This document shows, piece after piece, positions 534 to 15,440 of a stretch of 38,897 bases of DNA. The notes below the pieces were generated by a model. It made no database searches, was not told the origin of the DNA, and saw only the letters and a program-made list of their open reading frames with translations. The stretch's first letter is position 1, and each line of letters starts with the position of its first letter. Origin of the DNA: Frankia alni (GTDB lineage: Bacteria; Actinomycetota; Actinomycetes; Frankiales; Frankiaceae); the NCBI GenBank assembly GCA_026225295.1, contig JAMFSN010000178.1, positions 1-38,897 of the forward strand, given 5' to 3'. The position numbers were made by a program, and so were the translations under genes.

Positions 534-1031
534 CTACGCGGCGCTCACCAGGGCCGCCCGCAGCTGGACCCGGGCCAGCTCCAGCCACGACGTGAGGGCC
601 TCGGATTCGGCGTAGTCGGACTCGGGCAGGAACAGCCCGCGGGTGGGACTCGACGCGCCCAACTCGGCCAGTACCGGCTTGAGGAACGCCTCGGGAGCCA
701 GCGCATGGCGCCCATCGCCGCCGAGCATCAAGGCCACGGCGGTGGTCCCGGCCAGCGATCCGGCGCCGAAGCGGTCCAGGAACAGCTTCAACAGACCGGT
801 ATAGGTGGCCTTGTAGGTGGGACTGGCCACGATCAGCAGGTCGGCGGCCTGGACCTCGGCGACCGCCCGGGCCACGGCCGGGTCCTTCCAGTCCAACAGC
901 GCCGCACCGAAATCGACCAGATCGAACACCTCGTCCGGCGCGCGGCCGGTGAGCTTCTCCACCACCAGGTGGGCGGCGTGGAAGGTGCGCGAGCGCGGCC
1001 TGGGGTTGCCGACGACGATCACGGTGCTCAC
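534..1031 (-). CDS. NAD(P)H-dependent FMN reductase (SsuE/MsuE-like)
   Basis: A flavodoxin-like NADPH-dependent FMN reductase that would supply reduced FMN to the monooxygenases of the same operon. The FMN phosphate loop is visible near residues 8-16 (GNPRPRSRT), and the flavin/dimer segment SPTYKATYTG is at about 70-79, as in SsuE, MsuE and related reductases of sulfonate systems. Its 165 residues are slightly short of typical SsuE. It is the last gene of the minus-strand block and begins 40 bases after the preceding flavin reductase. Because two-component luciferase-type monooxygenases need a separate reductase, its place in the operon supports that role. The partner enzyme cannot be told from sequence. 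Confidence 0.85.
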   Translation of the reverse strand: MSTVIVVGNPRPRSRTFHAAHLVVEKLTGRAPDEVFDLVDFGAALLDWKDPAVARAVAEVQAADLLIVASPTYKATYTGLLKLFLDRFGAGSLAGTTAVALMLGGDGRHALAPEAFLKPVLAELGASSPTRGLFLPESDYAESEALTSWLELARVQLRAALVSAA

Positions 1032-1071
1032 GGGTCTGCTCTCTGATCGGGGTCGGCTGGCGCGGCGACCG

Positions 1072-1563
1072 TCACGGTTCCAGCCGCCGGAACTGGCTGG
1101 CGTGGAACACCAGCGGGTTGATGTCGTGGTCGGCGTCCAGGTCGCGGACCCGCAACACGACGATGTCGTGGTCTCCGGCCCGCACCTGCTGCTCGATGCT
1201 CGTCTCCAGCCACCCGCTGGCGCCGTCCAGGAGCACCGCGCCGTCGGCGGTCGGCCGCCACGAGAGCTCGGCGAACCGGTCGGCCCGGCGGGCCGCGAGC
1301 TGCCGGCCCGCGCGCTCCTGGGCGGCGCTCAGGATGCTGACGCCGAGCCGGGGGACCGCCCGCAGCAGCGGCCAGGTGGTGGAGCTGCGGGCTATACACA
1401 AGGACACCAGCGGCGGGTCCAGGGATACGGAAGTGAACGAGCTGGCCGCGATACCGACCGGCGCCCCGTCCACGAGCGCGGCGACGGCGGCGACGCCGGA
1501 GGGGAACGCGCCGAAAACGTGCCGCAGCCGCCGCTCGTCAAGGACCGGGATTGTGGTGGTCAT
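1072..1563 (-). CDS. Flavin reductase, HpaC/NtaB-like
   Basis: A flavin reductase of the FMN-binding split-barrel type (HpaC, NtaB and DszD-like reductases), using NAD(P)H to reduce free flavin. The family core lies at residues 37-57: GIAASSFTSVSLDPPLVSLC, where Ala-Ser-Ser-Phe and Asp-Pro-Pro contact FMN. The C-terminal segment ends in a strand seen in the family (VFHASQFRRLEP). I choose the ATG at 1563 because an AGGAG stands six bases before it; starts two and ten codons further upstream would overlap or precede that site. The product is 163 residues. With the neighbouring SsuE-like protein it gives this operon two unrelated flavin reductases, possibly serving different oxygenases. Confidence 0.88.
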   Translation of the reverse strand: MTTTIPVLDERRLRHVFGAFPSGVAAVAALVDGAPVGIAASSFTSVSLDPPLVSLCIARSSTTWPLLRAVPRLGVSILSAAQERAGRQLAARRADRFAELSWRPTADGAVLLDGASGWLETSIEQQVRAGDHDIVVLRVRDLDADHDINPLVFHASQFRRLEP

Positions 1564-1588
1564 CTGCATCTCCTGATCGTCGGGCGTC

Positions 1589-1627
1589 GTCACGGCCGGT
1601 TGTCACGGCCGGTTGTCACGGCCGATC
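1589..1627. repeat. 13-bp tandem repeat, three copies
   Basis: GTCACGGCCGGTT is present at 1589-1601 and 1602-1614, with a diverged third copy at 1615-1627. The third copy runs into a small hairpin (ACGGCCG-ATC-CGGCCGT). It fills the gap between the alpha/beta hydrolase stop and the flavin reductase start. It may be a slippage product; a role as a transcript processing site cannot be judged. Confidence 0.8.
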
Positions 1628-1676
1628 CGGCCGTCACTGGGGATCGCGGCGTCGATGCGCCGTCCCCGGCGGCCGG

Positions 1677-2555
1677 TCACCACGCGCTGGATTCCACCTC
1701 GATGAGCGGCTCCAGGGACGGCTCGTTGCGCAGTGCCTCCAGAAAGGTGACGACCTGGGCGGCGACCGACCGGTGCTGCAGGTCGTTGATGACGTCGTGG
1801 TGGGCGCCGCGCACGACCACCAGCCGAACCCGCCGCAGCGCCTTCGCCGACCGGGTCAACGCCGACCGGTCAGCCAGCGGGTCCGCGTCGCCGACCAGTA
1901 CCAGCCGGGGCAGATCGACCGCGCCGTCATAGGCCTCGTCGAGCAGCTCGCTCGGGACCGGGTCGGACAGCGAGCCGCGCGGCACCGACCGGTCGTTGCT
2001 GAGCACGCCGCGGTGGACGGTGCAGTGGGTGCGGGCGTCGAGTTCCTCGTCCCAGCCGCCGACCGGATGCGCGCCGTAACCCGGCAGCGCCGCCAGCACG
2101 AGCGCCTGCGGCCACCAGCCGACGCCCGGGGTCGCCGACCGGGCCACCCGGACCGCCAGCGCGGCGATCGCGGCGGCTCCGGTGTCCGAACCGACCAGCA
2201 CGAGCGGCCGCGCGGGCCCGTCGGCGCCGAGGCCCGCGACCGCATCAGTCAGCTGCCCGGCGAACCGGTCCAGCGTGCCGGGCAGGTCGGCCCCGTCGAT
2301 GACGGGCGCGGACAGCACCCGTACCCGGTAGGAGTCGGCGGCCAGCCGCCGGCCGAAGCGCCGGTAGGTGGCCGGGCTCTCACCGCGACCGGGTACGACC
2401 AGGACCGTGCCCCGGGTCCGCAGCCCGTCGGGCCCGGTGAAATCCAGGTCGGTGGGGACGTCCAGGTCGGTAGGGACGTCCAGGTCGGTAGGGACGTCCA
2501 GGTCGCTGGGGACGTCCAGGTCGGTAGGGACGTCCAGGTCGGTGGTCTCGCTCAC
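1677..2555 (-). CDS. Alpha/beta hydrolase with Asp at the nucleophile elbow
   Basis: An alpha/beta-fold hydrolase of 292 residues. After a repetitive N-terminus the fold begins near residue 48 (TRGTVLVVPGRGESP, with a Pro-Gly oxyanion loop). The nucleophile elbow reads LVGSDTGAA at about 120-128; aligned with the usual Gly-x-Ser-x-Gly this puts Asp124, not Ser, at the nucleophile position, as in haloalkane dehalogenases and epoxide hydrolases. A candidate acid is in VGDADPLAD (about 221-229) and the His in RGAHHD (about 249-254). The GTG start at 2555 lies one base after the stop of the upstream monooxygenase, suggesting coupled translation. Residues 4-38 are six copies of Asp-Leu-Asp-Val-Pro-Thr/Ser, encoded by an 18-bp tandem repeat. 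Its substrate is probably a product of the neighbouring monooxygenases, which is inference. Confidence 0.8.
   Translation of the reverse strand: MSETTDLDVPTDLDVPSDLDVPTDLDVPTDLDVPTDLDFTGPDGLRTRGTVLVVPGRGESPATYRRFGRRLAADSYRVRVLSAPVIDGADLPGTLDRFAGQLTDAVAGLGADGPARPLVLVGSDTGAAAIAALAVRVARSATPGVGWWPQALVLAALPGYGAHPVGGWDEELDARTHCTVHRGVLSNDRSVPRGSLSDPVPSELLDEAYDGAVDLPRLVLVGDADPLADRSALTRSAKALRRVRLVVVRGAHHDVINDLQHRSVAAQVVTFLEALRNEPSLEPLIEVESSAW
2443..2547. repeat. 18-bp in-frame tandem repeat, about six copies
   Basis: The unit TCCAGGTCGGTAGGGACG (plus-strand reading) is repeated at 2443, 2461, 2479, 2497 and 2515, with a partial sixth copy at 2533-2547. Copies differ at one to three bases. Being a multiple of three, it adds Asp-Leu-Asp-Val-Pro-Thr units to the N-terminus of the hydrolase without breaking the frame. 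Copy number is likely to vary between strains. Confidence 0.95.
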
Positions 2556-2556
2556 G

Positions 2557-3627
2557 TCAGACTCCAGCCAGTTCGGCCGGGCCGGTGGGCCCGGCGCCGG
2601 ATGCGGCAGATACGGCGGGCGCGGGCTGCCAGCCCAGGGCCGGGGCGACCTCGGTGGCGATGAGTTCCAGCGCCCGGATCGCCGCGTCGTGGTCGGGTAC
2701 ACCCGGGTTGAACTGGGTGATCAGATCGGTGGCGACCGGCAGCACCTTCTCCGCCCGCAACCCCGCGATCACCTCGTCGGGGTGGCCGTAGAAAGCGTGG
2801 AAACGCCGCAGGTATCCCTCGAGCGTCAGCCCGGCCGGGAACGCGCCGCGCTCGACCATCGCGCGGCTGGACTGCAGCACCCCGGCCTCGATCTGTTCCA
2901 CCGCCCGGCGCTTGTCGGCCGCCGGGAAGACGAGCCGGGACAGCCCGATCCGGGGTGCGCGCGGCCGGCTCCAGGTGGCCAGGAACTCGTCGGCCCAGGG
3001 CCGCTGGACCTCGTCGGTCGGCTCGTCGTAGCCGTAGGTGGCCCGGTTGAGCAGCAGGTTCGAGCCGCCGGTGGCCGCGTAGGCCGCGCCTGGCCGGCTG
3101 AACACGCCCTGCCAGATCCGGTCGGTGAAGTCGGCGGCCGGGGGCAGGATCCGGAAGCCGGGCGTGCCGACCTCCTCGTTGGCCAACGCCTTGCGCAGCA
3201 CGGCCAGCCCTTCGCTGGTCAGCTCCCGCTTACGCTCCGCGTCGCGGCCGAACGCGGCGTACTCAAGCGCGCTGAACCCGCTGCCGACCCCGATCTCAAC
3301 GCGGCCGCCGCTGAGGGTGTCGACGACCGAGACGTCCTCGGCCAGCCGCACCGGATGTTCCAGCGGCAGGATGGTGATCGCGGTCGCGAGTCGGATCCGC
3401 CTGGTCCGCGCGGCGGCGTGGGCGAGGAACGTCCACGGCGACGGGAGCCCGCCGCCGCCCAGGGAGACGTGGTGCTGGGCCACCCAGCCGACGTCGAAAC
3501 CGAGCTCGTCGGCGACGACGAACAGCTCCTGGGCGTTGCGGTAGGTCGCCGTGAGGTCGTCGCCCCGGCCCTGGACGTGGGTGAGGAATCCGAGCCGGAA
3601 ACGCGGCCGGCCAGCGGGTGACGTCAT
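2557..3627 (-). CDS. LLM-class flavin-dependent oxidoreductase (luciferase-like)
   Basis: A bacterial-luciferase-like flavin monooxygenase, 356 residues, a TIM barrel using reduced FMN delivered by a reductase. Family blocks are visible: RLGFLTHVQG at the N-terminus, ADELGFDVGWVAQHH near 40-53, TRRIRLATAITILPLEHPVRLAED near 75-98 and TLSGGRVEIGVGSGF near 104-118. It belongs to a different branch from the three NtaA/DszA-like enzymes in this block and resembles putative FMN-dependent monooxygenases found with them in sulfur-scavenging clusters. I use the ATG at 3627, six bases after GGGAG; the frame remains open to 3651. Its stop lies one base from the GTG of the hydrolase, so the two are probably translated as a unit. 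Confidence 0.88.
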   Translation of the reverse strand: MTSPAGRPRFRLGFLTHVQGRGDDLTATYRNAQELFVVADELGFDVGWVAQHHVSLGGGGLPSPWTFLAHAAARTRRIRLATAITILPLEHPVRLAEDVSVVDTLSGGRVEIGVGSGFSALEYAAFGRDAERKRELTSEGLAVLRKALANEEVGTPGFRILPPAADFTDRIWQGVFSRPGAAYAATGGSNLLLNRATYGYDEPTDEVQRPWADEFLATWSRPRAPRIGLSRLVFPAADKRRAVEQIEAGVLQSSRAMVERGAFPAGLTLEGYLRRFHAFYGHPDEVIAGLRAEKVLPVATDLITQFNPGVPDHDAAIRALELIATEVAPALGWQPAPAVSAASGAGPTGPAELAGV

Positions 3628-3652
3628 GTGGATCTCCCTTCCGGGCCGCACA

Positions 3653-4963
3653 TCAGGCGACGCCCAGGTTCTCGCGGAATGTGTCGTACTCGTAATCGGT
3701 CCGGAACCGCCCGCGCTTCTGCAGCTCGACGACGACGCCGTCGATGAAACGTTCGAGGCCTTCGGTCTGAACGTCGATATTGATGTTGAAGCCGTCGGAA
3801 GCGCCGTCGTCGACCCATTCGATGATGTTGTCGGCGATCTGTTCCGGGGTGCCGATCAGGATGCGATGGCCACCGCTGAGATTGTTGAACAACAGCTGGC
3901 GCACGGTCAGCCGACGGTCGCGGGCCTCCGTGACGATCTGCTCGCGGTGGCGGGCCAGCACCGAGGAGCCGGGCCCGTCCGCGAGCTTGCCGTAAGGCAG
4001 TTCAGCGTCCAGTTCGAGTTCCGCCGGGGCGATGCCCAGGCGCTCGGCCAGCTGGTCGAGCAGGTAGTCGGCGTCGAGCTGAGCGTCGAGCGCGTCCTTG
4101 CGCTGCCGGGCCTCGGCCTCGGTCGACCCGACGATCACCCACAGGCCGGGGAGCACGACCAGCTTGTCGGGGTCGCGGCCGTAGGAGGCGGCCAGCCCCT
4201 TCACCTGGGTCGAGAAACGCCGGGCCAGATCCTTCGTACGTTGCCCGGTGAACAACGCGTCGGCCCACCGCGCGCCGAATGCGCGGCTGTGACCCGACGC
4301 GCCGGCCTGGAACAGCACCGGCCGTCCCGCGTAGCCCCCGGGGAGCGGGAGCACCGAATGGGTGGAGTAGAACTCGCCGTCGTATTCGACGGGGTTCGTT
4401 TTTGCCTTGTCGATAAAGAGGTCAGCCGGTTTGTCGTTCACGATCGCGGTCGGCGGCAACGACTCCCACAGCCGGGTCACGATCGTGACGAACTCCTCGG
4501 CCTTGCGGTAACGCGGGTCGTGGTCGAGCGTCCCCGACAGCCCGAGGGCCTCGAGGGTGGGCGGATTCTGGCTGGTGATGATGTTCCACGCGGCGCGCCC
4601 GTGGCTGACGTGATCGAGGCTGGCGAGCTGGCGGGCGACGCCGAACGGGTGTCCGTAGATCGCGTGGACGGTCGACACCAGCCCGATGCGGTCGGTGTCC
4701 CGGGCGATCGCGGCCAGCAGGACGGTCGGGTCGAGCCCCCGCCAGGGGCGACGGACGGATTCCGCGCCCAGCGAGCCGAGCGAGTCGGCGAGGAAGATCG
4801 CGTCGAATTTGCCCTGCTCGGCGAGCTTGGCGATGGAGATGTAGTAGTCGACGTCCGTGACGAGGCCCGCGGTGTCCTCGAGTGTCTTCCAGGCCGCGTC
4901 GTGGCGGCCGGCGGTCTGCAGATTGAGGTTCAGGCGGATCTGCCTGGGCCGGTCAGGTGACAT
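3653..4963 (-). CDS. NtaA/SnaA/DszA-family flavin monooxygenase
   Basis: A two-component flavin monooxygenase of the family that includes DszA (dibenzothiophene sulfone), NtaA (nitrilotriacetate), SnaA and the Bacillus S-alkylcysteine enzyme CmoJ. It is 436 residues, normal for the family. Characteristic blocks are YYISIAKLAEQGKFDAIFLADS (about 40-61), RIGLVSTVHAIYGHPFGVARQLASLDHVSHGRAAWNIITS (about 92-131), GRPVLFQAGAS, and the C-terminal LQKRGRFRTDYEYDTFRENLG, which is nearly diagnostic. The start at 4963 is chosen because the frame further upstream runs under the FAD monooxygenase; the Shine-Dalgarno there is weak (AGGG, 13 bases away). Substrate unknown. The operon context suggests carbon-sulfur bond cleavage. 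Confidence 0.92.
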   Translation of the reverse strand: MSPDRPRQIRLNLNLQTAGRHDAAWKTLEDTAGLVTDVDYYISIAKLAEQGKFDAIFLADSLGSLGAESVRRPWRGLDPTVLLAAIARDTDRIGLVSTVHAIYGHPFGVARQLASLDHVSHGRAAWNIITSQNPPTLEALGLSGTLDHDPRYRKAEEFVTIVTRLWESLPPTAIVNDKPADLFIDKAKTNPVEYDGEFYSTHSVLPLPGGYAGRPVLFQAGASGHSRAFGARWADALFTGQRTKDLARRFSTQVKGLAASYGRDPDKLVVLPGLWVIVGSTEAEARQRKDALDAQLDADYLLDQLAERLGIAPAELELDAELPYGKLADGPGSSVLARHREQIVTEARDRRLTVRQLLFNNLSGGHRILIGTPEQIADNIIEWVDDGASDGFNINIDVQTEGLERFIDGVVVELQKRGRFRTDYEYDTFRENLGVA

Positions 4964-4990
4964 GTCGGGGGTGCCCTGTCGTCGCGGTGG

Positions 4991-5028
4991 GGTGGGATCG
5001 TCGCGGTCGGGTGGGATCGGGGCGGTCG
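4991..5028. repeat. 19-bp direct tandem repeat, two copies
   Basis: GGTGGGATCGTCGCGGTCG at 4991-5009 is followed directly by a copy with two changes at 5010-5028. It sits in the 70-base gap between the FAD monooxygenase stop and the next monooxygenase start. Confidence 0.8.
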
Positions 5029-5033
5029 GGCGC

Positions 5034-6872
5034 TCAGCCGGCGGGTACCGGCACGAGGCCGGCGTCGGCCGGCCGTTCGCGGTCGGCCGTGGTCGGGTCG
5101 GCGATCGACCCGGTCGACCCCGCCCCGCTCGGCGCGGTCCCGTCGGCCGGCGGCCCGCCGAGGACGAGGTCGAGCACCGCGGCCGCCCCGCCGGCCGGCA
5201 GCCGGGCGCCGCGCCAGGCGACGTGCTGGTCGGGCCGCACCAGCGCGTTGTCCGCGCCGTACAGCTCCCCGACGGCCGGGTCGGTGAGGTGGATGACCGT
5301 GAACGGCAGCGCCCGGGCGGCGGCCTCGGCGGCGAACGCCTGCTCCACGCTCCGGTCGCCGGTGAACACCAGCAGCGCGAAACCCGTGCCGATCCGGTCG
5401 TAGAGCGTGCCGCCCCACGGGTCGACGTAGCCGTCGGGGGCCCGGTGCCCAGGGCGCGGGTCGGCCTCGTAACGCTCCGGCGACCAGGGCGTCTCCTGCG
5501 CCAGCTGGTCCGGTTCATACCAGATCACGCCCGAGGCGTCGTAGCGCTCGTCGAACACCACCCCGGCCGCCTCACCGCGCTCGGCGGTGATGAGAGTGCC
5601 GATCTCGGTGCGCCGGCGCCCGGCGTCGGGGCTCAGGTCGTCGTCGTCGGGCACGCCGATCCCGCGGATGGCCTCCAGCGTCTCCCGGCTGCGCCGGGAG
5701 CGCTCCAGGGCGTGGTCGGCGACACGCCAGTTGTGCCGGCGCCGCTCCTGGTCGTAGGAGTCCAGCAGCGTCTCCGGGGCGTGGCCGGCCAACACGGCGG
5801 CGAGTTTCCAGCCGAGGTTGGCCACGTCGCCGAAACCCTCGCCGAGGTTGCCGCCCGGGGTGCGGACGTGCGCCGCGTCGCCGGCCAGCACCACCCGACC
5901 GCGGCGGAACGTCTCGGCGACCCGGCTGGCCCGGTAGAAGGTGGTGGCCGACACCAGCTCGAGGCCCAGGTCGAAGCCGAACGCCGCCCGCGCGGTGGCC
6001 AGCAGCTCCGCCTCGGTCGGCTCGTAGTCGAGCGGGAACGGCTCGCTGTAGACCCGCCACTCGCGGGTGCTGACCGCCGCGAGGAAGCCGGCCGCCTGCT
6101 GGTTGAACACGATGTTGGTGCCGCTCGGCGCGGCCCCGACCTGCTCGGAGATGTCCCCGGTCCGCACGATCAGGCGCAGCTGCTTCTGCCGTGCGTACTC
6201 ACCTTCGCGGGCGATGCCGGCCCGGGCCCGCACGGTGCTCGGGCCGCCGTCGGCACCGATCACGTACCGCGACCGGATGGTCCGCCGCTGCCCGGTATCC
6301 GGGTCGACGACCTCGGTGGTGATCCCGTCGGTGGTCTCGGCCAGGGCCTCGACCCGCCACCCGCCGGCGACGGTGACGCCGTGCAGCTCCAGATGATGCA
6401 GGAACGCCTGTTGCAACGCGGTCTGCGGGCGGCGGATCGGGTCGGCCAGCGAATGGCCCCCGCGGCCGGGGTCGGTGAACCCGCGCCGCGCGGTCGGCAC
6501 GAGTTCGTGGCCGACCAGGGACGTGAGGAGCCGGATCCCCTGGTTCCACTCGGGCGGGAACGTCCACTCGTCCCGGATCCGCTGGAGCAGCCCCCAGCGG
6601 CGGAAATGCTCGACCACCCGGGGCGTGTGGCCCATCGCGCCGGCCCGCACGAGCGTCGCGGCCCGCCGGGCGTCGACCACCGCGACGTCGACGCCCCGGC
6701 CGGTGAGATCCACGGCGGCCGACAGGCCGACCGGACCGGCCCCGACAACGAGCACGTCCACCTCGTCCGGCGGCGTCCCGGCGGGAAAGTGCACGATGTG
6801 CACGTCGCGGTCGCCGGTAACAGAAAGTTGGTTTTCGGACAACAGGTTCTCGGACAGCTGGTTCTCGGGCAT
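5034..6872 (-). CDS. Group A FAD-dependent aromatic hydroxylase (PheA/TfdB/MhpA type)
   Basis: A single-component flavoprotein hydroxylase that uses NAD(P)H and oxygen, usually to hydroxylate an aromatic ring. The three family motifs are clear: the Rossmann GAGPVGLSAA at about 44-53, the conserved GADGGPSTVR at about 206-215, and GDAAHVRTPGGNLGEGFGDVANLGWKL at about 331-357. The C-terminal third (about 480-600) looks like the thioredoxin-like domain found in phenol-hydroxylase relatives. It has 612 residues. GAGGAGG lies six bases before the ATG. The N-terminus contains a duplicated NQLSEN-like unit, another short tandem duplication. It is embedded between two NtaA/DszA-like monooxygenase genes, which suggests that the imported substrate is aromatic or becomes a phenol-like intermediate; that is inference. 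Confidence 0.92.
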   Translation of the reverse strand: MPENQLSENLLSENQLSVTGDRDVHIVHFPAGTPPDEVDVLVVGAGPVGLSAAVDLTGRGVDVAVVDARRAATLVRAGAMGHTPRVVEHFRRWGLLQRIRDEWTFPPEWNQGIRLLTSLVGHELVPTARRGFTDPGRGGHSLADPIRRPQTALQQAFLHHLELHGVTVAGGWRVEALAETTDGITTEVVDPDTGQRRTIRSRYVIGADGGPSTVRARAGIAREGEYARQKQLRLIVRTGDISEQVGAAPSGTNIVFNQQAAGFLAAVSTREWRVYSEPFPLDYEPTEAELLATARAAFGFDLGLELVSATTFYRASRVAETFRRGRVVLAGDAAHVRTPGGNLGEGFGDVANLGWKLAAVLAGHAPETLLDSYDQERRRHNWRVADHALERSRRSRETLEAIRGIGVPDDDDLSPDAGRRRTEIGTLITAERGEAAGVVFDERYDASGVIWYEPDQLAQETPWSPERYEADPRPGHRAPDGYVDPWGGTLYDRIGTGFALLVFTGDRSVEQAFAAEAAARALPFTVIHLTDPAVGELYGADNALVRPDQHVAWRGARLPAGGAAAVLDLVLGGPPADGTAPSGAGSTGSIADPTTADRERPADAGLVPVPAG

Positions 6873-6883
6873 GGCGGGCCTCC

Positions 6884-8230
6884 TCAGGCTTCGGCGCTGA
6901 CGAGCCCGCGCTCGAGCGTGTGACGGTTGGCGGGGACCGGCAGCCCGAGGTTGCCGCGCAGGGTGTCGGCCTCGTACCCGGTCCGGAACAAGCCGCGCTT
7001 CTGCAACAGCGGCACGACGTCGGCGACGAACCGCTCCAGGTCCTCAGACGTGCGGAAGCCCAGGTTGAGGCCGTCGAACGCCCGGGCGTCGAACCACTGC
7101 CCGATCGTGGCGGCCACGGTGTCGGGGGCGCCGACGAACGGCGAGGGCTGGTAGTCGGTGAACACCTCCACGGTCTGGCGCAGGGTCAGCCCCTCGGCGC
7201 GGGCGCGGCGCACGATTTCGGTGCCGCGGGTCCGCCCGCCCTTCTCGGCCAGCGCCGCGACGTCCGGGAACGGCGCGTCCAGGTCGTGCTGGCTGAAGTC
7301 GTAGGCCCCGAAGCCGCGGCCCAGGAACGCGAGCTTGCGGTCGAAGTCGTTGTCGGCCTCGAAGACGTCCCGGGACAGCCGCCGGGCCTGCTCGTCGGTG
7401 CCCGCGACGACCGGATTGGCCCCCAGGAAGATCAGGACGTGCTCCGGGTTGCGACCGGCGGCCGCCGTCCGCCGCTTGATGTCCGCGTAGTACGCCTGGG
7501 TCTCGGCCAGCGAGCCGCCCGGCGCGTAGATCCCCTCGGCGACGTGGGCGGCCAGATTGCGACCGTCCTCGGAGACCCCGGCCTGGAAGATCACCGGCTG
7601 GCCCTGCGGCGACCGGGACAGGTTGAGCGGGCCCGCGACCTTGAAATGCTCGCCGACGTGATCGAGAGCGTGCAGCTTGGCCGGGTCCAGGAAGATCCCA
7701 CGCTCCACGTCCGCCGGGAAGGCGTCGTCCTCGTAGGAGTCCCACAGGCCGCGGATCACCGCGACCGCCTCGTGGGCCCGCCCGTAGCGGGTCGCGTAGT
7801 CCAGGTGCTCGTCCAGGCCGTAGTTCCGGCTGGTGCCGGTGTCGAAGCTGGTGACGACGTTCCAGCCGGCCCGGCCACCGCTGATGTGGTCGAGGGAGGC
7901 GAACCGGCGGGCCAGATTGAACGGCGAGTTGTAGGTCGAGCTCAGCGTGCCGACCAGGCCGATGTGGGTGGTGTGCACCGCGACAGCCGACAGCAGGGTC
8001 AGCGGTTCGAGCCGGTTGAGGTAGTGGGCCGGGTAGGTCGCGTTGATGAACTGGCTGTCGACGATGAAGAACGCGTCGAACTTGGCGTGCTCGGCGGCCT
8101 GGGCCTGCGCGATGTACCACCGGATGTCGGTGCTCGCGTTCTTCGGGACCCGCGGGTCCTTCCACAGGCTGTGCTGGCCGGGGCCGCCGACGCCGTAGGC
8201 GCGCAGCGCGAGCCGGATCTTGCGGGTCAT
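6884..8230 (-). CDS. NtaA/SnaA/DszA-family flavin monooxygenase
   Basis: A second DszA-type, FMNH2-dependent monooxygenase, 448 residues. It shows the family blocks: DIRWYIAQAQAAEHAKFDAFFIVDSQF (about 35-61), THIGLVGTLSSTYNSPFNLARRFASLDHISGGRAGWNVVTSFD (about 88-130), GQPVIFQAGVSEDGR, and the C-terminal LLQKRGLFRTGYEADTLRGNLGLPVP. It is closely related to the enzyme at 13646-15082: both begin with a near-identical GVGGPGQH block and both end GNLGLP(V/I)P(A/E)NRH, so they are probably paralogues from a duplication. AAGGA stands five bases before the ATG. It lies between the ABC transporter ATPase and the FAD hydroxylase and is likely translated from the same long transcript. Confidence 0.93.
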   Translation of the reverse strand: MTRKIRLALRAYGVGGPGQHSLWKDPRVPKNASTDIRWYIAQAQAAEHAKFDAFFIVDSQFINATYPAHYLNRLEPLTLLSAVAVHTTHIGLVGTLSSTYNSPFNLARRFASLDHISGGRAGWNVVTSFDTGTSRNYGLDEHLDYATRYGRAHEAVAVIRGLWDSYEDDAFPADVERGIFLDPAKLHALDHVGEHFKVAGPLNLSRSPQGQPVIFQAGVSEDGRNLAAHVAEGIYAPGGSLAETQAYYADIKRRTAAAGRNPEHVLIFLGANPVVAGTDEQARRLSRDVFEADNDFDRKLAFLGRGFGAYDFSQHDLDAPFPDVAALAEKGGRTRGTEIVRRARAEGLTLRQTVEVFTDYQPSPFVGAPDTVAATIGQWFDARAFDGLNLGFRTSEDLERFVADVVPLLQKRGLFRTGYEADTLRGNLGLPVPANRHTLERGLVSAEA

Positions 8231-8308: not shown

Positions 8309-9169
8309 TCAGACCCGCAGCCGGGCGCGCAGGGCGTCCCGCCCGGCGCGGTCGGCGGCGGCGGAGCGCAGCGTCGGAGCCGACCCGACGAGCAGCCGGG
8401 TGTAGACGTGCCGGGGCGCGTTGATGACGGTGCGGGCGGCCGCCACCTCCACGATCTCGCCCTCGTAGAGCACGGCGATGCGGTCGGCGACCCCGGCGAC
8501 CGAGCCCAGGTCGTGGGAGATGAACACCAGGGCCACCCCGGAGTCCCGCAGGTCCTTGAGGATCTGCAGCACCTGCACCCGGTTGGCCGAGTCCAGGCCG
8601 CTCACCGGTTCGTCGAGGATGATCAGCGCCGGCTCGGTGACCAGCACCCGGGCGACCGTGACCCGCTGGCGCTGCCCGCCCGACAGTTCGCCCGGCAGCC
8701 GCCTGAGCAGGTCCTCGTCCAGGTGGACGCGGGCCAGGTAGCGCCGGGCCCGGGCCACCGCCTCGGCCCGGCCCACGCCCTGGACGAGCAGCGGCTCGAT
8801 CAGCGACTCCTCGATGGCGAGGTCCGGGTCGAGGCTGCGCAGCGGATCCTGGAAGACGTACTGGACGACCCCCCGGCGGCGCAGCGCCCGCCACTGCCGG
8901 TGGGAGTAACCGGTCACGTCCTCGCCGTCGATGCGGATGCGGCCGGCCGACGCGTGGACGAGTCCGAGGACGGCCCGGGCGAACGTGGATTTACCCGAAC
9001 CGGTCTCCCCGATCACGCCGACGGTCTCGCCCCGCGCCACCGACAGGGAGACCCCCTGCAGCACCCGACGCCGACGCCGCCGCAGCCCGTAGTGCACCTC
9101 GAGATCGGTGACCTCGAGAACGGGACGCCCGGGACCGGCGTACCCAGGCGCGGCCGGGTCAGCGGACAC
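8309..9169 (-). CDS. Peptide/nickel-type ABC transporter ATPase (DppF/OppF-like)
   Basis: An ATP-binding subunit of a dipeptide/oligopeptide/nickel-type importer, 286 residues. Walker A GETGSGKST is at about 54-62, the Q-loop in VFQDPLRSLDP, the signature LSGGQRQRV, Walker B LIILDEPVSGLD and the switch His in FISHDLG. The C-terminal extension with TRLLVGS fits the DppF class. I choose the GTG at 9169 rather than a start at 9217: AGAAGGAG lies seven bases before this GTG, and it leaves only an 11-base overlap with the other ATPase gene instead of 59. It would pair with that ATPase to power the two permeases. Confidence 0.92.
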   Translation of the reverse strand: MSADPAAPGYAGPGRPVLEVTDLEVHYGLRRRRRRVLQGVSLSVARGETVGVIGETGSGKSTFARAVLGLVHASAGRIRIDGEDVTGYSHRQWRALRRRGVVQYVFQDPLRSLDPDLAIEESLIEPLLVQGVGRAEAVARARRYLARVHLDEDLLRRLPGELSGGQRQRVTVARVLVTEPALIILDEPVSGLDSANRVQVLQILKDLRDSGVALVFISHDLGSVAGVADRIAVLYEGEIVEVAAARTVINAPRHVYTRLLVGSAPTLRSAAADRAGRDALRARLRV

Positions 9170-10067
9170 GGTCCAACTCCTTCTCGCCAGCGCCCAGGTG
9201 GTCGCCGGAGCCGTCAACCTCGGGAGCGTCGGCCGCGGGAGCGTCCAGGAACCGGTCCAGGCCGTACTGCTCGTGTTCGTCGATCAGCAGCCGGGTGTAC
9301 TCGTGCCGCGGCTGGTAGAGGACCTGCGCGGTCGGGCCTTGCTCGACCACCTCACCGGAACGCATGACCAGCACCTCGTCGCACACCTGCGCGACGACGG
9401 CCAGGTCGTGGGAGACGACCACGAGCGCGAGCCCGGTCCGTTCGCGCAGGTCGGCCAGCAGGTCGAGGATCTCGGCCTGGACGGTGACGTCCAAGGCGGT
9501 GGTCGCCTCGTCGGCGATGAGGACCTTCGGGCCGGCCGCGATCGCCGCCGCGATGAGGACCCGCTGGAGCATGCCGCCGGACAGCTCGAAGGTGAACTGG
9601 CCGTAGACCAGCTCCGGGTCGCGCAGGCGCACGGCGGCCAGCAGCTCCAGCGCCCGGTGCCGCGCGGCCCGCCGGTTCAACCCCTTCTTCACCCGGCTGA
9701 CCTCGGCGATCTGCCGGCCGACCGGGATCGACGGGTTCAGGTAGGACGCCGGGTCCTGGAAGACCGCGCTGATGGTCCCGCCGCGCAGGTCCACCCACCG
9801 GGCCGGGGTGAGCCCGGCGATGTCGTGGCCGGTGATCTCGATGGAGCCGCCGGACACCACGAAGTGCTCGGGCAGGATCCCCAGCGCCGCCCGGCAGGTG
9901 AGCGTCTTGCCGCTGCCGGATTCCCCGACGATGCCCACCACCCGACCCGGCGTGAGCTCGAAGGAGACGCCGTGCACGATCTCGCGGTCGTTGACCTCGT
10001 CCCGGATCCGGACGTCGCGCAGCGCCAGCACCGCGCTTTCGGGGACACCTTCGGGGACCGGCGTCAT
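9159..10067 (-). CDS. Peptide/nickel-type ABC transporter ATPase (DppD/OppD-like)
   Basis: The second ATPase of the importer, 302 residues. Walker A GESGSGKT is at about 48-55, the Q-loop in AVFQDPASYLNP, the signature LSGGMLQRV, Walker B VLIADEATTALD and the switch His in VVSHDLAVV. The spelling of the signature and of Walker B (IADEATTALD) is that of DppD/OppD subunits. The tail after residue 265 (EHEQYGLDRF onward) is acidic and unlike the usual OppD ending with an iron-sulfur-type Cys motif; no such Cys cluster is seen. Its start overlaps the DppC stop by four bases, so translation is probably coupled. Confidence 0.93.
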   Translation of the reverse strand: MTPVPEGVPESAVLALRDVRIRDEVNDREIVHGVSFELTPGRVVGIVGESGSGKTLTCRAALGILPEHFVVSGGSIEITGHDIAGLTPARWVDLRGGTISAVFQDPASYLNPSIPVGRQIAEVSRVKKGLNRRAARHRALELLAAVRLRDPELVYGQFTFELSGGMLQRVLIAAAIAAGPKVLIADEATTALDVTVQAEILDLLADLRERTGLALVVVSHDLAVVAQVCDEVLVMRSGEVVEQGPTAQVLYQPRHEYTRLLIDEHEQYGLDRFLDAPAADAPEVDGSGDHLGAGEKELDRVR

Positions 10068-10957
10068 CGGGCACCACCTTCGACGGAAACGGGTTCACGA
10101 TCGGCGACCCGGTTGACGCGCGCCCTACGGGTGTTCAACAGCGCGCGTCCCGCCTCACCGGAGACATCCCGGATCGCGTCGGCCAGCTGGTTGCAGCCCC
10201 AGACGGTCGCCATGATCAGCACGATCGGAGCGACCGGGGCGTACGGCTGGTAGTGCAGGTAGCGCAGGTCGGAGGCCAGCAGACCACCCCAGGTCGGCGC
10301 GGGCGGCTGAACGCCGATCCCGAGGAAGGTGAGGCTGGAGACGACGACGAAACCGATGCCGACGGTCTGGGCCAGCGCCACCGCGATCGGCGGCAGCACC
10401 TTCACCCAGACGTGCCGGCGCACGATCCAGCCGATGGAGGCGCCGGAGATCAACGCCGCCTCGACGTACTGCGAGCGCGCGACGGCCAGTGTCGCGGCCC
10501 GCGAGACCCGGTAGAACAGCGGGGAGATCAGCACCCCGACGGTGATCATCGCCTGCGAGATGCCGTTGCCCAGCAGCGCGGTCACCGCGACCGCGAAGAC
10601 CAGGAACGGCAGAGCGATCAGCGTGTCGGCGACCCGCAGCGTCAGCCACTCGAACGCCCGGCCGAGATACACCGACAGAATGCCCGGCACGGCCCCGACG
10701 ACCAGCGCGATCAGCGCGACCTCGACCGAGCCCAGCACGCTGATGCGCGACCCCTCGAGCAGTCGGCTCAACACGTCCCGGCCGAGGTAGTCCGTCCCGA
10801 GCCAGTGGTGCCAGGACGCTCCGGCCAGCTGCTGCGGGCCGCCGGCGAGCGGGTCCTGGGGGGCGAGGAGCTTGCCGAAGACGGCCAGGAAGACGATCAC
10901 GAACAGGACGCCGGCGGCGATCCGGGCCGACACCAGACTCAGGACCCGGCGGACCAT
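10064..10957 (-). CDS. ABC transporter permease (DppC-like)
   Basis: An inner-membrane permease of the DppC/OppC type, 297 residues with about six membrane segments: one near residues 8-28 (ARIAAGVLFVIVFLAVFG), then a periplasmic loop containing HHWLGTDYLGRDVLSRLLEGSRIS, which is the hallmark of DppC proteins, followed by five helices. The cytoplasmic EAA-like loop that docks on the ATPases is in YVEAALISGASIGWIVRRHVWVKVLPP. The C-terminus carries a basic tail. It lies between DppB and DppD with a one-base gap on one side and a four-base overlap on the other. Confidence 0.93.
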   Translation of the reverse strand: MVRRVLSLVSARIAAGVLFVIVFLAVFGKLLAPQDPLAGGPQQLAGASWHHWLGTDYLGRDVLSRLLEGSRISVLGSVEVALIALVVGAVPGILSVYLGRAFEWLTLRVADTLIALPFLVFAVAVTALLGNGISQAMITVGVLISPLFYRVSRAATLAVARSQYVEAALISGASIGWIVRRHVWVKVLPPIAVALAQTVGIGFVVVSSLTFLGIGVQPPAPTWGGLLASDLRYLHYQPYAPVAPIVLIMATVWGCNQLADAIRDVSGEAGRALLNTRRARVNRVADREPVSVEGGAR

Positions 10958-10958
10958 G

Positions 10959-11993
10959 TCACACCCCCCGCTGCGAGGCCGGGGTGACCCGGCCCAGCAC
11001 GACGTTGATGATCAGGTTGAAGCTGACGACCAGCAGGATCGAGACCACCAGCACGCCCTGCACGGCGGGTACATCACCCTGCTGGGCCGCGTCGTTCGCG
11101 AAACGGCCGAAACCCTGCAACCCGAAGATCCATTCGGTCACGACGGAGCCGCCGATGATGACGGGGAACCGCGCGCCGAGGACCGACAGGGCCGGGCCGG
11201 CCCCGTTACGCAGCACATGCCGGAAGAAGATCCGCCGCGGGCTCAGCCCCCGCACGATCGCCCCGGTCACGTAGTTCTCCCGGTAGGCGGCGATCAGACC
11301 GGACCGCAACTGCCGGGCGACAACGGAAATGGCGTCGAAGCTCAGGGCCACGGCCGGCAGCGTGATGTGGGCCAGCCACAGCCCGAAGCCCTGGTTGGCC
11401 GGCACATAGCCGGCGGAGGGAAACCAGCCCAACCCGACGGCGAAGACCTCCACCAGGATGATGCCGACCACGAACGGCGGCATCACCGAGATGACCGTCA
11501 TGAATCCGGTGATGACCCGGTCGATCCAGGTGGTGCGGCGCACCGCGGCGAGGGTGCCGAAGGCGAAGCCGAACACCACCCCGATGATCAGGGCGAAAAA
11601 GCTCACCGACAGGCTGATGGTCAGGCCGTCCCCGAGCAGTTGCGTGATACTCACTCCGCTGGACCAGCTGCGGCCGAGGTTGCCATGCAGCAGATGGTCG
11701 AACCAGCTCCCGTACTGGGCCAGGAACGGGCGGTCCAGGCCCCACTGGCTCTCGATGTTGTGGATGGCCTGCGGCGTCGCGTCCTCGCCCAGTTGGAGAC
11801 GGGCCGGGCTGAGACCGCTCAGGGCGCGCAGCGAGAAGGTTACGAACGTCGCCACCAGGAAAACCGGGACGAAGATCGCGACCGAGCGGGCGAGGGTGGC
11901 CAGGGTGCGGCCGGCCGCCCGCCGCACCCTGGCCGCGACGACCCCAGGGCGCCGACCGGAAACGAACGGGTAGGTAGCCGCGCTCACCGCCAT
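10959..11993 (-). CDS. ABC transporter permease (DppB-like)
   Basis: The partner permease of DppB/OppB type, 344 residues. An extended N-terminal arm of about 35 residues precedes the first membrane helix (LARSVAIFVPVFLVATFVTFSL). The family loop WGLDRPFLAQYGSWFDHLLHGNLGRSW is present at about 90-117, and the docking loop is in YRENYVTGAIVRGLSPRRIFFRHVLRN. GAGGAGG stands seven bases before the ATG at 11993. It forms a heterodimeric channel with the DppC-like protein. The transported compound cannot be read from the permeases, but in this operon it is plausibly an organosulfur compound rather than a peptide. Confidence 0.93.
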   Translation of the reverse strand: MAVSAATYPFVSGRRPGVVAARVRRAAGRTLATLARSVAIFVPVFLVATFVTFSLRALSGLSPARLQLGEDATPQAIHNIESQWGLDRPFLAQYGSWFDHLLHGNLGRSWSSGVSITQLLGDGLTISLSVSFFALIIGVVFGFAFGTLAAVRRTTWIDRVITGFMTVISVMPPFVVGIILVEVFAVGLGWFPSAGYVPANQGFGLWLAHITLPAVALSFDAISVVARQLRSGLIAAYRENYVTGAIVRGLSPRRIFFRHVLRNGAGPALSVLGARFPVIIGGSVVTEWIFGLQGFGRFANDAAQQGDVPAVQGVLVVSILLVVSFNLIINVVLGRVTPASQRGV

Positions 11994-12062
11994 GAGGTTG
12001 CCTCCTCTCGATGAAGGTCGATGAATGTCAACGAACCCTTGGGAATCTCAGCTGGATGGGCG

Positions 12063-13613
12063 TCAGTCGCTGATGGTCACGCCGTTCCAGTCGATGTGGG
12101 CGGGGTTCTTCGGCAGGTTCGAAATGGACTTGCTCTTGGCAAACAGGTTCGGCGCGGAGTAGTCGAAGATCAGGGCCTTGCTCTGCAGTCCGGCCCGCGT
12201 GGCGGCCTGCAGCACCTTGGCGTAGTTGGGCGAGTCCAGCGGGGTCTGGCGAACCTTGGCCACCGCCGCTTCGAAGCCCGCCGGTTCGTAGGGCGAGCTG
12301 AGGTTCAACACGCCGTTGGGGCCGAAGTGCGCCGTGAGCGTCTGGACAGCCGAGTCGCGCCCGGTCGTGCCGTAGAGGGAGAACGTCAGGTCCTTCGCGA
12401 AGAAGGGCGTCGCCCAGTTCTTGTCGACCTTGATGCTCACCTTGATCCCGACGGCCGCGAGTTGGGACTGCACGATCTCCGCGGCCGGGTCGTCCGTCAG
12501 GGTCACCAGTTGGAGGGAGATCTGATTCGGCTTGTAGCCGGCTTCGGCCAGCAGCTGCTTCGACTTGGCCGGGTTGTACGGGTACAGGTCCCCCGACTGC
12601 GGGTCGTAGGCCACGTAGCCCGGCGGGAAAGGCTGGTCGGTGGCCTGGCCGTAGCCGAAGGTGAGCTTGTCGACGAACTCCTTGCGGTTGATGGCGTACC
12701 GGACGGCGTCGACGACCTTGGGGTTGGTGAACGGTGCCTTGTTGACGTTGACGCTGATGTTGCTGGCGTTGAAGCCGGGCTGCACGAAGACGTCGAGGCC
12801 GGCGGCGGTGGCCGCCTTGGCCTGACTCGCGGGGAGGTCGGCGAAGTTGTACGTGCCGGTCTGCAGGCCCGCGACCACCGTCGAGGGATCAGAGGCCGAG
12901 ATCAGCTGCACATTGTCGAAGTGGATGTCCTTGGCGTCCCAGTAGGTGGGGTTCTTCTTCAGGACCGCCTTGGTGCCCGGGATCAGCTGGGTCACGGTGA
13001 ACGGCCCGGCCCCGACCGGGGCCTGGTCCAGCTTCGTCGGGTCGGCCGCCGCCTTGGGACTCGCGACCTGCAACACCCGCTCGCCCAGCAGCAGCGGAAT
13101 CTGATAGTCAACCTGGGTCAGGTGGACCAGCACGTCCAGGTCACCGCTGGTCGTGACCGCCTTGATGGAGGTGAGGTCGCCGAACAGGGCCGAGTTCTTC
13201 TGCGTCTTGGCGCGCTCGATGGCGTCCTTGACGGCCGCGGCGTTCACCGGCGTGCCGTCGCTGAAGGTCAGGTTCGGGCGCAGATGGAACGTGACCTCGG
13301 TACCGGCGCTGTTGTATTTCCAGCTCTCGGCCAGGTCCGGGACGGCGTTGCCGTTGGCGTCGGTCTTGGTCAGCGACGCGTACACGAGGGCCAGCTCCCG
13401 GAACTGGGCTCCGCTGCCCCCGACCACCGGGTCCCAGTGCGTCGGGAAGTACGAGGCGGCCCACTTCAGGGTGGGCGATCCGCCGCCGCTCCCCCCCGCT
13501 GCCGCGCCGCCGCCGCTGCCGGCGCAGGCGCTGAGCACAACGGCCGAGGAGGCCGCCAGGGCCGCCATCCAGGTTGCCGGGCGGGCGCGCGGGGTGCGTC
13601 GTGCGGGGGTCAT
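12063..13613 (-). CDS. ABC transporter substrate-binding lipoprotein (family 5)
   Basis: A periplasmic-type solute-binding lipoprotein of family 5 (DppA/OppA/NikA), 516 residues. The signal peptide has the basic stretch TPARRTPRARPATW, a hydrophobic core and the lipobox LSAC with Cys30 as the lipidated residue, followed by a Gly/Ser linker. The mature part has the family's opening blocks (LKWAASYFPTHWDPVVG, DLAESWKYNSAGTEVTFHLRPNLTFSDGTPVNAAAVKDAIER) and ends with the common C-terminal lobe. I place the start at the ATG at 13613, six bases after AAAGAG; the frame is open to 13649. It is the component that decides specificity, so its ligand would tell what the whole operon is for. Confidence 0.93.
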   Translation of the reverse strand: MTPARRTPRARPATWMAALAASSAVVLSACAGSGGGAAAGGSGGGSPTLKWAASYFPTHWDPVVGGSGAQFRELALVYASLTKTDANGNAVPDLAESWKYNSAGTEVTFHLRPNLTFSDGTPVNAAAVKDAIERAKTQKNSALFGDLTSIKAVTTSGDLDVLVHLTQVDYQIPLLLGERVLQVASPKAAADPTKLDQAPVGAGPFTVTQLIPGTKAVLKKNPTYWDAKDIHFDNVQLISASDPSTVVAGLQTGTYNFADLPASQAKAATAAGLDVFVQPGFNASNISVNVNKAPFTNPKVVDAVRYAINRKEFVDKLTFGYGQATDQPFPPGYVAYDPQSGDLYPYNPAKSKQLLAEAGYKPNQISLQLVTLTDDPAAEIVQSQLAAVGIKVSIKVDKNWATPFFAKDLTFSLYGTTGRDSAVQTLTAHFGPNGVLNLSSPYEPAGFEAAVAKVRQTPLDSPNYAKVLQAATRAGLQSKALIFDYSAPNLFAKSKSISNLPKNPAHIDWNGVTISD

Positions 13614-13645
13614 CGTTTTCTCTTTCTGGGTGGGATCGCCCGCGG

Positions 13646-15082
13646 TCACGGGACGAGAACCGGGCTGGTCGGAGCGGTGGCATCGGTCGGGGTGGTGGCA
13701 TCGGTCCCGGTGCTGGGACTGGTCGGGGCCGGGTCGGCCTGGTCCGGCCCACCGCGGGCCGCGCTGTGACGGTTCTCGGGGATGGGCAGGCCGAGGTTTC
13801 CGCGCAGGGTGGTCGACTCGTACTCGTCGCGCACGACGCCGCGCTCCCGCAGGATCGGCAGCACCTCGTCCGTGAAACGGGCGAAGTCGCTGGGTACCGT
13901 GACGCTGATGTTGATGCCGTCGAAGGCCCCGGCCTCGAACCAGCGCTGAATCTCGTTGGCCACCGTGAGCGGCGAACCGACGAACGGCGAGCGGGCGGCC
14001 TGCAGTTGATGCTCGACCACCTGGCGCAGCGTCAGGTGGTTGTCCCGGGCCAGTTTCTTGATGGCCTCGGCATGGGTGCGGAAGCTGCGCTGCCCGGCCT
14101 CGGCGACCTCGGCCTCGGGGAACGGCGCGTCCAGGTCGTACCGGGAGAAGTCATGCCAGCCGAACGGCCGGCCCAGCTCGGCCAGCGCCCGGTCGAAGCT
14201 CTTGCCGCCCAGGATCGCGTCTTCCTGGGCCCGGGCCTCCTCGTCGGTGTCGGCGATGATCGGGAAGATGCCCGGCATGATGAGCAGGTTTTCCGCGTCC
14301 CGGCCCTTCGCCGCGGCGCGCTCCCGCAGGTCGGCCCGGAACGCCTGACCCTGTTCGACCGTCTGCGCGTGGGTGAAGACCGCGTCGGCGACGCTCGCGC
14401 CCAGGTCGCGACCCTCTTCGGAGTCGCCGGCCTGGAAGATCACCGGCTGGCCCTGCGGCGTGCGCTCCAGGTTCAGCGGGCCGACGACCGAGAAGTACTC
14501 ACCCTTGTGGTTCAGCTGGTGCTGACGGGTGCGGTCGAAGAAGACGTTGCGCTGCTTGTCGCGCGGGAACGCATCGGCCTCGTAGGAGTCCCAGAGTGCC
14601 TGGGCGACCCCCACGTGCTCGAGCGCGCGGCCGTAGCGGGTCGCGTAGTCGTAGTGCTCGTCGCGGCTGTAGTTGCCCGCGGTTCCCCCGTCGCCGCTGG
14701 TGACGACGTTCCAGCCCGCGCGGCCGCCGCTGATGTGATCGAGCGAGGCGAGGCGGCGGGCGACGTTGAACGGCTCGTTGTAGGAGGTCGTGATCGTGCC
14801 CACCAGGCCGATGTGGTCGGTGTGGACGGCGACGGCCGACAACAGGGTCAGCGGCTCGAGCCGGCTCAGGTAGTGGTTCGGGGAATCGGGGGTGATGAAC
14901 TGGCTGTCGACAATGAAGATGAGGTCGAACTTCGCCGCCTCGGCCTCCTGGGCCCGGGCGATGTACCAGCGGATGTCGACGCTGGCGTTCCCGGGTATCT
15001 CGGGGCTGAGCCAGGTGTTGTGCTGCCCGGGGCCGCCGACGCCGATCAGGATCGCACCGAGCTTGAGGGTGCGACGAGACAT
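13646..15082 (-). CDS. NtaA/SnaA/DszA-family flavin monooxygenase, first gene of the operon
   Basis: The third DszA-type monooxygenase of this block and the first gene after the leader peptide. It is 478 residues, about 30 longer than its paralogue at 6884-8230 because of a Pro/Thr/Asp-rich tail (after GNLGLPIPENRH) made of TDATTP-like units. Family blocks are DIRWYIARAQEAEAAKFDLIFIVDSQF, HIGLVGTITTSYNEPFNVARRLASLDHISGGRAGWNVVTS and GQPVIFQAGDSEEGRDL. GGAAGG lies seven bases before the ATG. The enzyme would use FMNH2 from the reductases at the far end of the operon. A sulfone, sulfide, sulfonate or N-substituted acid are all possible substrates for the family; the leader peptide favours a sulfur compound. 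Confidence 0.93.
   Translation of the reverse strand: MSRRTLKLGAILIGVGGPGQHNTWLSPEIPGNASVDIRWYIARAQEAEAAKFDLIFIVDSQFITPDSPNHYLSRLEPLTLLSAVAVHTDHIGLVGTITTSYNEPFNVARRLASLDHISGGRAGWNVVTSGDGGTAGNYSRDEHYDYATRYGRALEHVGVAQALWDSYEADAFPRDKQRNVFFDRTRQHQLNHKGEYFSVVGPLNLERTPQGQPVIFQAGDSEEGRDLGASVADAVFTHAQTVEQGQAFRADLRERAAAKGRDAENLLIMPGIFPIIADTDEEARAQEDAILGGKSFDRALAELGRPFGWHDFSRYDLDAPFPEAEVAEAGQRSFRTHAEAIKKLARDNHLTLRQVVEHQLQAARSPFVGSPLTVANEIQRWFEAGAFDGINISVTVPSDFARFTDEVLPILRERGVVRDEYESTTLRGNLGLPIPENRHSAARGGPDQADPAPTSPSTGTDATTPTDATAPTSPVLVP
13676..13711. repeat. 18-bp in-frame tandem repeat, two copies
   Basis: GGTGGCATCGGTCGGGGT at 13676-13693 is followed by GGTGGCATCGGTCCCGGT at 13694-13711. It encodes TDATAP and TDATTP units in the C-terminal tail of the monooxygenase, beyond the conserved family ending. 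Confidence 0.85.
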
Positions 15083-15187
15083 AGTGATGCCTTCCTTCGG
15101 ACCTCGCTGGGAGGTGAGGGATCAAATGGGGGTGGGCGGTGAGAAGTAAGAGGGGGGTAGCGGGGTGCGACCGGTGGACCGGCCGTG

Positions 15188-15285
15188 CGGGCCCGGCTCG
15201 GATCCCGGGTTCGGGCCCGACCCGCCCACCGTGCGGAGCACCGGCGGTCAGGGGAGCGGATTCGCGCCGCGGCGCGCCCCGCGGC
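15188..15285 (-). promoter_or_regulatory. Hairpin-rich leader region after the Cys leader ORF
   Basis: Between the leader ORF stop and the first monooxygenase there are 252 bases with no gene. On the transcript they can form a 7-bp perfect hairpin (GCCGCGG and CCGCGGC, loop of six, 15266-15285) and a long hairpin between two CGGGCCCG copies (15188-15195 and 15212-15219). No clear run of T follows, so a Rho-independent terminator is not proven; Rho-dependent attenuation or control of translation would also be possible. Confidence 0.45.
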
Positions 15286-15334
15286 CGAGCCGAAGGAGGG
15301 ACCGTTCGACGTCGCCGCTGCGACTACGAAGAGG

Positions 15335-15415
15335 TCAGCGACAGAGCGTGGCGCCGCTGCGGGCGTTGTCCAGCCAGCGACAGCACGTGAGCATCACGGC
15401 GGCGGGCTGGGTCAT
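15335..15415 (-). CDS. Cysteine-type regulatory leader peptide (26 aa)
   Basis: A short ORF of 26 codons with an adjacent Cys-Cys pair and a penultimate Cys; its tail is CCRWLDNARSGATLCR-stop. Two of its Cys codons are consecutive (TGC TGT) and the last is TGT, followed by CGC TGA. The tail fits Asp-x-Ala-Arg-x5-Cys-Arg, shared with three other short ORFs in the window. It begins 102 bases left of the LysR start on the opposite strand and ends 252 bases before the first monooxygenase. No Shine-Dalgarno is visible, so the message may be leaderless. Short Cys-rich ORFs that sense Cys-tRNA and attenuate downstream sulfur genes are known in mycobacteria, and actinomycete leader peptides with a similar RHVDL...CR tail are annotated. 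I infer the same role here. Confidence 0.75.
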   Translation of the reverse strand: MTQPAAVMLTCCRWLDNARSGATLCR

Positions 15416-15440
15416 GAGAGCTAGCTTGCGAGGTCAGGGC

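Follow-up and report, generated by a model that had tools for sequence, protein, structure and literature searches.

The dsz and ssu/sfn operons remove sulfur from organosulfur compounds with reduced-flavin monooxygenases and a flavin reductase. The ytm/ytn (CmoO/CmoJ) cluster of Bacillus subtilis combines FMNH2-dependent monooxygenases and flavin supply with a link to cysteine, and its importer is of the amino-acid type; YtnJ and CmoJ are presumably two Bacillus gene names for the same enzyme. The Klebsiella locus of the KPN_01854-01858 type (TIGR04027/TIGR04028) has a luciferase-like monooxygenase (LLM) of the TIGR04027 kind and an SBP_bac_5 importer. CmoJ cleaves the C-S bond of N-acetyl-S-alkylcysteine sulfoxides (PMC10863075), and the Bacillus pathway requires an acetyltransferase and a deacetylase (PMC12757645). 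In mycobacteria, short Cys-rich open reading frames (ORFs) have been reported to be cysteine-responsive (Canestrari 2020, as relayed in PMC9094748; also PMC4633059). Here, I describe a thirteen-gene operon in a contig of Frankia alni (JAMFSN010000178.1 of assembly GCA_026225295.1; its 38,897 nucleotides (nt) are called the window below). With a confidence slightly better than even, the operon is taken to bring in an organosulfur compound from outside and to desulfurise it oxidatively, under the control of cysteine limitation. No description of it was found in the open-access library searched, and it is filed here as a widespread variant of the known flavin-dependent sulfur-scavenging operons, with known parts and a new combination, spread, and leader.

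All thirteen genes lie on the minus strand between positions 15082 and 534 (Table 1). The spacing between neighbours ranges from -59 to +83 nt, which bears out the one-strand run with overlaps and short gaps of the initial annotation, and a search of the minus strand showed no terminator-like site within the operon. The count of twelve genes given there was wrong, since its own list sums to thirteen: three NtaA/DszA-type monooxygenases (A1, A2, and A3), one other LLM (KPN-type), one FAD hydroxylase (FADMO), one alpha/beta hydrolase, two flavin reductases, and five importer genes. All the gene families named were indeed found there, and the Cys leader at the operon head (15415-15335) and the divergent LysR gene (15518-16426) were confirmed.

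Is this arrangement common in other actinobacteria? When the FADMO sequence was used as the query in named genomes, 63 loci were obtained, 50 of which are close relatives of the window operon (type I), including one rearranged hybrid from a metagenome-assembled genome (MAG) of Solirubrobacterales; some loci are cut by contig ends. The type I hosts include Frankia, Protofrankia, Parafrankia, Jatrophihabitans, Actinokineospora, Amycolatopsis, Micromonosporaceae, Kineosporia, Cellulomonas, and Streptomyces. The gene order is kept in 46 of the 47 informative loci from other species, in which six or all seven of the core genes share one strand. Thus, the clustering is not due to chance, and an invention of the operon in this one genome was ruled out. 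The spread is sporadic: of 395 genomes sampled from the class, 12 have the operon, and nine of these 12 belong to the family of the window.

Among the 50 type I loci, FADMO is present in 50, the importer genes in 47-50, A2 in 47, and the hydrolase in 37, while LysR (30), A1 (29), the KPN-type LLM (27), and reductases of the window's kinds (6 and 3) differ between genomes. The near-constant core is the importer, the RebC-like FAD monooxygenase, and one LLM monooxygenase. A Jatrophihabitans MAG has the complete set apart from A3. The LysR orthologues are 51-74% identical and mostly divergent at the operon head. The initial annotation knew of no characterised pathway with this exact set, and none was found described in the open-access library searched; the exact set is not one indivisible pathway, since no other type I operon fetched contains A3, and A1, the KPN-type LLM, and the two reductases are not the same in all genomes.

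The leader ORF upstream of A1 encodes MTQPAAVMLTCCRWLDNARSGATLCR*, and its consensus, MTQxxxVMLTCCRWLDxARxxAxLCR, heads type I operons of many genera; leader-bearing loci were found in Frankia, Protofrankia, Parafrankia, Jatrophihabitans, Actinokineospora, Micromonosporaceae, and Nostocoides. In the core codons of seven aligned leaders, changes fall at eight third, one first, and one second positions, and the DNA beyond the leader stop codon hardly aligns among relatives. This bias and the loss of alignment past the stop codon favour translation of the leader, and the conservation of the peptide ruled out a chance ORF. The case depends on conservation rather than on the motif, because the loose motif alone gives about 0.8 matches per shuffled window. 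No NCBIfam model matches the leader, and tRNA was the only match of the Rfam search. Every one of the 19 leader-bearing loci examined has two hexamers ahead of the leader ATG: TTGGAC at a distance of 37-38 nt and CANNCT at 7 nt. This geometry is consistent with a leaderless transcript that would start at the leader ATG. The mycobacterial polycysteine attenuators resemble the leader in being short Cys-rich ORFs with a leaderless-type start before sulfur-related genes, but the leader sequence and the operon behind it are different. From this likeness, I infer that the leader may act by cysteine-responsive attenuation.

All three NtaA/DszA-type enzymes exceed the curated TIGR03860 (NtaA/DmoA family) cutoff of 279.7 bits. 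A1 and A2 are 58% identical to each other, and their nearest solved relatives are YtnJ and 3SDO (45% identity). Both are closer to YtnJ than to DszA, NtaA/EmoA, DmoA, or LadA; A1 scored 412 bits with YtnJ against 219 with DszA and 181 with EmoA, and A2 scored 390 against 226 and 184. The preference over DszA and EmoA is read from these scores, because YtnJ and 3SDO were the only outside references in the A1/A2 tree. In contrast, A3 scored nearly equally with YtnJ (225 bits) and DszA (218 bits). It is proposed from this clade membership that A1 and A2 may perform a CmoJ-like C-S cleavage. Unlike the dsz and ssu/sfn operons, the operon has monooxygenases nearer to YtnJ than to DszA, and neither SsuD nor SfnG lies inside it. 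The KPN-type LLM scores with TIGR04027 and not with the MsnO8 model. As for the Klebsiella locus, both of the corresponding operon proteins fall short of the curated cutoffs, with 274 bits against 413 and 70 against 469.

The import and oxidation of an organosulfur compound had been suggested in the initial annotation. This part stands, with the oxidation being flavin-dependent, and the sulfur reading gains independent support from the conservation of the leader and promoter and from the clade of A1 and A2. It is further favoured because the gene order is kept across genera, both operon types (type II is described below) have a Cys leader, SfnG-like LLM genes are neighbours in some genomes, the mycobacterial Cys-rich ORFs offer a precedent, and the window is rich in sulfur genes (a sulfhydrylase gene with a leader of similar kind, methionine salvage genes, and a TauD-type gene). 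The proposed "aromatic or heterocyclic" nature of the substrate did not fare as well, its sole ground being the RebC/HbpA-like fold of FADMO. Several points weigh against the sulfur reading. No conserved attenuator hairpin or terminator was found between the leader and the genes, where the spacer cannot be aligned, and the leader region of the window folds no better than shuffled sequences (z -0.66; z -2.21 in one relative). Several loci, including all those of Streptomyces, showed no leader in the motif search. In addition, NtaA-family enzymes act on sulfur-free substrates too, and SBP_bac_5 proteins bind many ligands.

Under cysteine-controlled desulfurisation, the operon might work as follows. 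Transcription would start at the leader ATG from the promoter beside the divergent LysR gene. When Cys-tRNA is scarce, the ribosome would stall on the Cys codons of the leader and the downstream genes would be expressed, if the mycobacterial precedent applies. The lipoprotein and the Opp/Dpp-type ATP-binding cassette (ABC) importer would take the compound in, and the RebC-like FADMO may oxygenate it, either by hydroxylating a ring or by taking the part of CmoO and forming a sulfoxide. The two flavin reductases, which belong to unrelated families, would provide FMNH2 for the two-component LLM enzymes. A1 and A2 might then act on the activated substrate like CmoJ and split a C-S bond. The Asp-type hydrolase may dispose of a by-product such as an epoxide or ester, and the freed sulfur would feed cysteine synthesis. 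If true, soil actinobacteria, including nodule-forming Frankia, would win sulfur from organic matter by a route that is widespread but, it seems, undescribed.

The operon might instead belong to a salvage pathway for S-alkylated cysteine as in Bacillus (acetylation, CmoO sulfoxidation, CmoJ cleavage, and deacetylation), with the missing steps encoded elsewhere. The pathway is a described one (PMC10863075 and PMC12757645), and the 45% identity of A1 and A2 to YtnJ/CmoJ speaks for it. However, neither an N-acetyltransferase nor a deacetylase is encoded in the operon or belongs to the families recurring beside it, which are cupin, Rrf2, DsbA-like, FMN reductase, DUF1684, and apparent transporter families. 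Since these steps are missing, the operon is not simply the Bacillus pathway. The 533 bases between the last operon gene and the left contig end hold a single gene, for a GNAT acetyltransferase (58-528, plus strand); this was ruled out as the missing acetyltransferase, being convergent with the operon and without a match in the fetched relatives. The Opp-type importer and the Asp-type hydrolase also set the operon apart from ytm/ytn, FADMO has no counterpart in that pathway, and the KPN-type LLM does not match the MsnO8 model. This alternative is regarded as unlikely.

FADMO has the group A fold (FAD_binding_3, 204 bits; TM-score of 0.74/0.86 with RebC), and RebC, PieE, HbpA, and RdmE-type aromatic hydroxylases are its nearest relatives. 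The nucleophile position of the alpha/beta hydrolase is occupied by D126, which is invariant in 38 of 38 sequences and directly follows a strand (residues 120-125) in a structure model with a mean pLDDT of 85; D225/D227 and H254/H255, candidates for the acid and His partners expected of an Asp-nucleophile enzyme (epoxide hydrolase/dehalogenase type), are also conserved. However, its best fold matches are monoglyceride lipases and general alpha/beta hydrolases. Such enzymes would suit the catabolism or detoxification of a sulfur-free aromatic or natural product, with the leader merely tying a thiol-consuming oxidation to the cysteine supply. Against this stand the CmoJ-clade enzymes, the Cys leaders of both operon types, and the LLM-type sulfone/sulfonate relatives that adjoin the operon in some genomes; a sulfur-free substrate is judged improbable, to the same degree as the Bacillus-like salvage. 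There is a slim chance that the operon recycles sulfur from mercapturic acids, N-acetyl-S-conjugates excreted after mycothiol detoxification of antibiotics or electrophiles. Actinobacteria release mercapturic acids through mycothiol S-conjugate amidase (PMC4267739). No acetyltransferase would be needed, because the substrate would arrive acetylated, and the RebC-like enzyme, of a kind that handles aromatic natural products, and the Asp-type hydrolase would be accounted for. If true, this would newly link the waste of antibiotic detoxification to the soil sulfur supply. Least likely is the scavenging of nitrogen or metals (nitrilotriacetate/ethylenediaminetetraacetate-like chelates, metallophores, or opines) by a Nik/Opp-type importer and NtaA-type monooxygenases: NtaA and EmoA are members of the family, and nickel/opine models of NCBIfam and AgaA are among the best matches of the solute-binding lipoprotein, all of them weak, but A1 and A2 match YtnJ much better than EmoA and a Cys leader stands in place of a nitrogen- or metal-responsive element. 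The importer itself is of the Opp/Dpp/Nik type, consisting of an SBP_bac_5 protein, two BPD_transp_1 permeases, and two ATPases.

A second operon (type II) in Frankia genomes consists of the solute-binding protein, permeases, ATPases, an A3-like LLM, a FADMO (55-58% identity), a distant LLM, and DUF1684. Most of the Frankia copies are preceded by their own Cys leader of the same style, MPLVTCREVDLMRTGSAICR. The type II loci, from Frankia and others (L032-L037, L075-L078, L084, and L091), have the DUF1684 gene at the end. A3 is 59-61% identical to the LLM of these operons and groups with the type II branch; its nearest relative is a Microbacterium allomyrinae protein (74% identity; support of 96/84), which adjoins a KPN-type LLM and DUF1684. 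No other fetched type I locus contains A3, which was therefore ruled out as a core gene; no second strong match to it was found in a wide sample of the phylum. At a strict cutoff, no second FADMO was found in the window's genome. From its branch and the lack of a second FADMO, A3 is best read as an insertion into the type I operon.

Table 1. Positions of the operon genes, leader, promoter elements, and divergent regulator in the window
Feature	Position	Strand	Basis
Divergent LysR-family regulator	15518..16426	+	Pfam HTH_1 + LysR_substrate
Probable -35 element TTGGAC	15447..15452	-	In 19/19 leader-bearing loci compared
Probable -10 element CAAGCT	15423..15428	-	7 nt before leader ATG; CATGCT/CATACT in most relatives
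Cys-rich leader ORF	15335..15415	-	Conserved peptide, third-position codon bias
A1, NtaA/DmoA-family FMN monooxygenase, YtnJ/CmoJ clade	13646..15082	-	TIGR03860 488 bits; YtnJ 412 bits, 45% identity
Solute-binding lipoprotein	12063..13613	-	Pfam SBP_bac_5 244 bits; best PDB match AgaA 127 bits
ABC permease 1	10959..11993	-	Pfam BPD_transp_1 112 bits; conserved order
ABC permease 2	10064..10957	-	Pfam BPD_transp_1
ABC ATPase 1, Opp/Dpp type	9159..10067	-	Pfam ABC_tran; 4 nt overlap with permease 2
ABC ATPase 2, Opp/Dpp type	8309..9217, start uncertain	-	Pfam ABC_tran; NCBIfam Opp/Dpp/Gsi/Nik models below cutoff
A2, NtaA/DmoA-family FMN monooxygenase, YtnJ/CmoJ clade, sister paralogue of A1	6884..8230	-	TIGR03860 471 bits; YtnJ 390 bits
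FADMO, group A FAD monooxygenase, RebC-like	5034..6872	-	Pfam FAD_binding_3 + Rng_hyd_C; RebC best by sequence and fold
A3, NtaA/DmoA-family FMN monooxygenase, lineage-specific insertion (best reading)	3653..4963	-	TIGR03860 416 bits
KPN_01858-like LLM monooxygenase	2557..3651	-	TIGR04027 274 bits, cutoff 412.9 not reached
Alpha/beta hydrolase, Asp at nucleophile position	1677..2555	-	G-x-D126-x-G; alpha/beta hydrolase fold
Flavin reductase, Flavin_Reduct/HpaC-HsaB type	1072..1593	-	Pfam PF01613 129 bits
NADPH-dependent FMN reductase, SsuE/MsuE-like	534..1031	-	Pfam PF03358; TIGR03567 86 bits, below cutoff

Some start codons in Table 1 are uncertain: ATPase 2 (TTG at 9217 or GTG at about 9169), the KPN-type LLM (GTG at 3651 or ATG at 3624), the lipoprotein (ATG at 13613 was used), the hydrolase (GTG at 2555), and the Flavin_Reduct-type reductase (GTG at 1593 or ATG at about 1563). 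The N-terminus of the hydrolase (about 2440-2555, minus strand) has a tandem repeat, DLDVPTDLDVPSDLDVPTDLDVPTDLDVPTDLD, which was not seen in the relatives displayed.

In the Streptomyces loci, neither LysR nor A1 is present; these loci open with genes for an Rrf2 regulator and a DsbA-like protein, and most carry an FMN reductase gene at the other end. In L065 (680-2723) and sixteen more loci, nearly all from Streptomyces, a divergent cupin gene, the Rrf2-family regulator, and the DsbA-like protein replace LysR, the leader, and A1. The Bacillus cysteine regulator CymR likewise belongs to the Rrf2 type. In 33 loci, a cupin gene is found at the edge. In Cellulomonas and Microbacterium, an SfnG-like LLM gene lies near the operon (L071, 12539-13591; L087, 91-1155; L096, 12.5 kb); the two that were scored reached 227 and 220 bits, below the cutoff of 383.

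Elsewhere, the window carries a TauD-type dioxygenase gene (25743-26792) and methionine salvage genes, which encode an ARD-like protein (26808-27401), MtnA (within 28399-30645), and acireductone synthase (31761-32507); the latter two score above cutoff. A second Cys-leader-like ORF (32597-32653, plus strand) ends in RRLTRRRHVDLARFRSSFCPR; chance alone would yield about one such motif per window. Downstream of this ORF lie genes for a 2OG-Fe(II) oxygenase (32829-33932) and, at about 34050-35310, an O-acetylhomoserine/O-acetylserine sulfhydrylase that exceeds the PRK07812 cutoff. The same sulfur-rich contig carries a tRNA-Cys (gca) gene at 36846-36917 on the minus strand.

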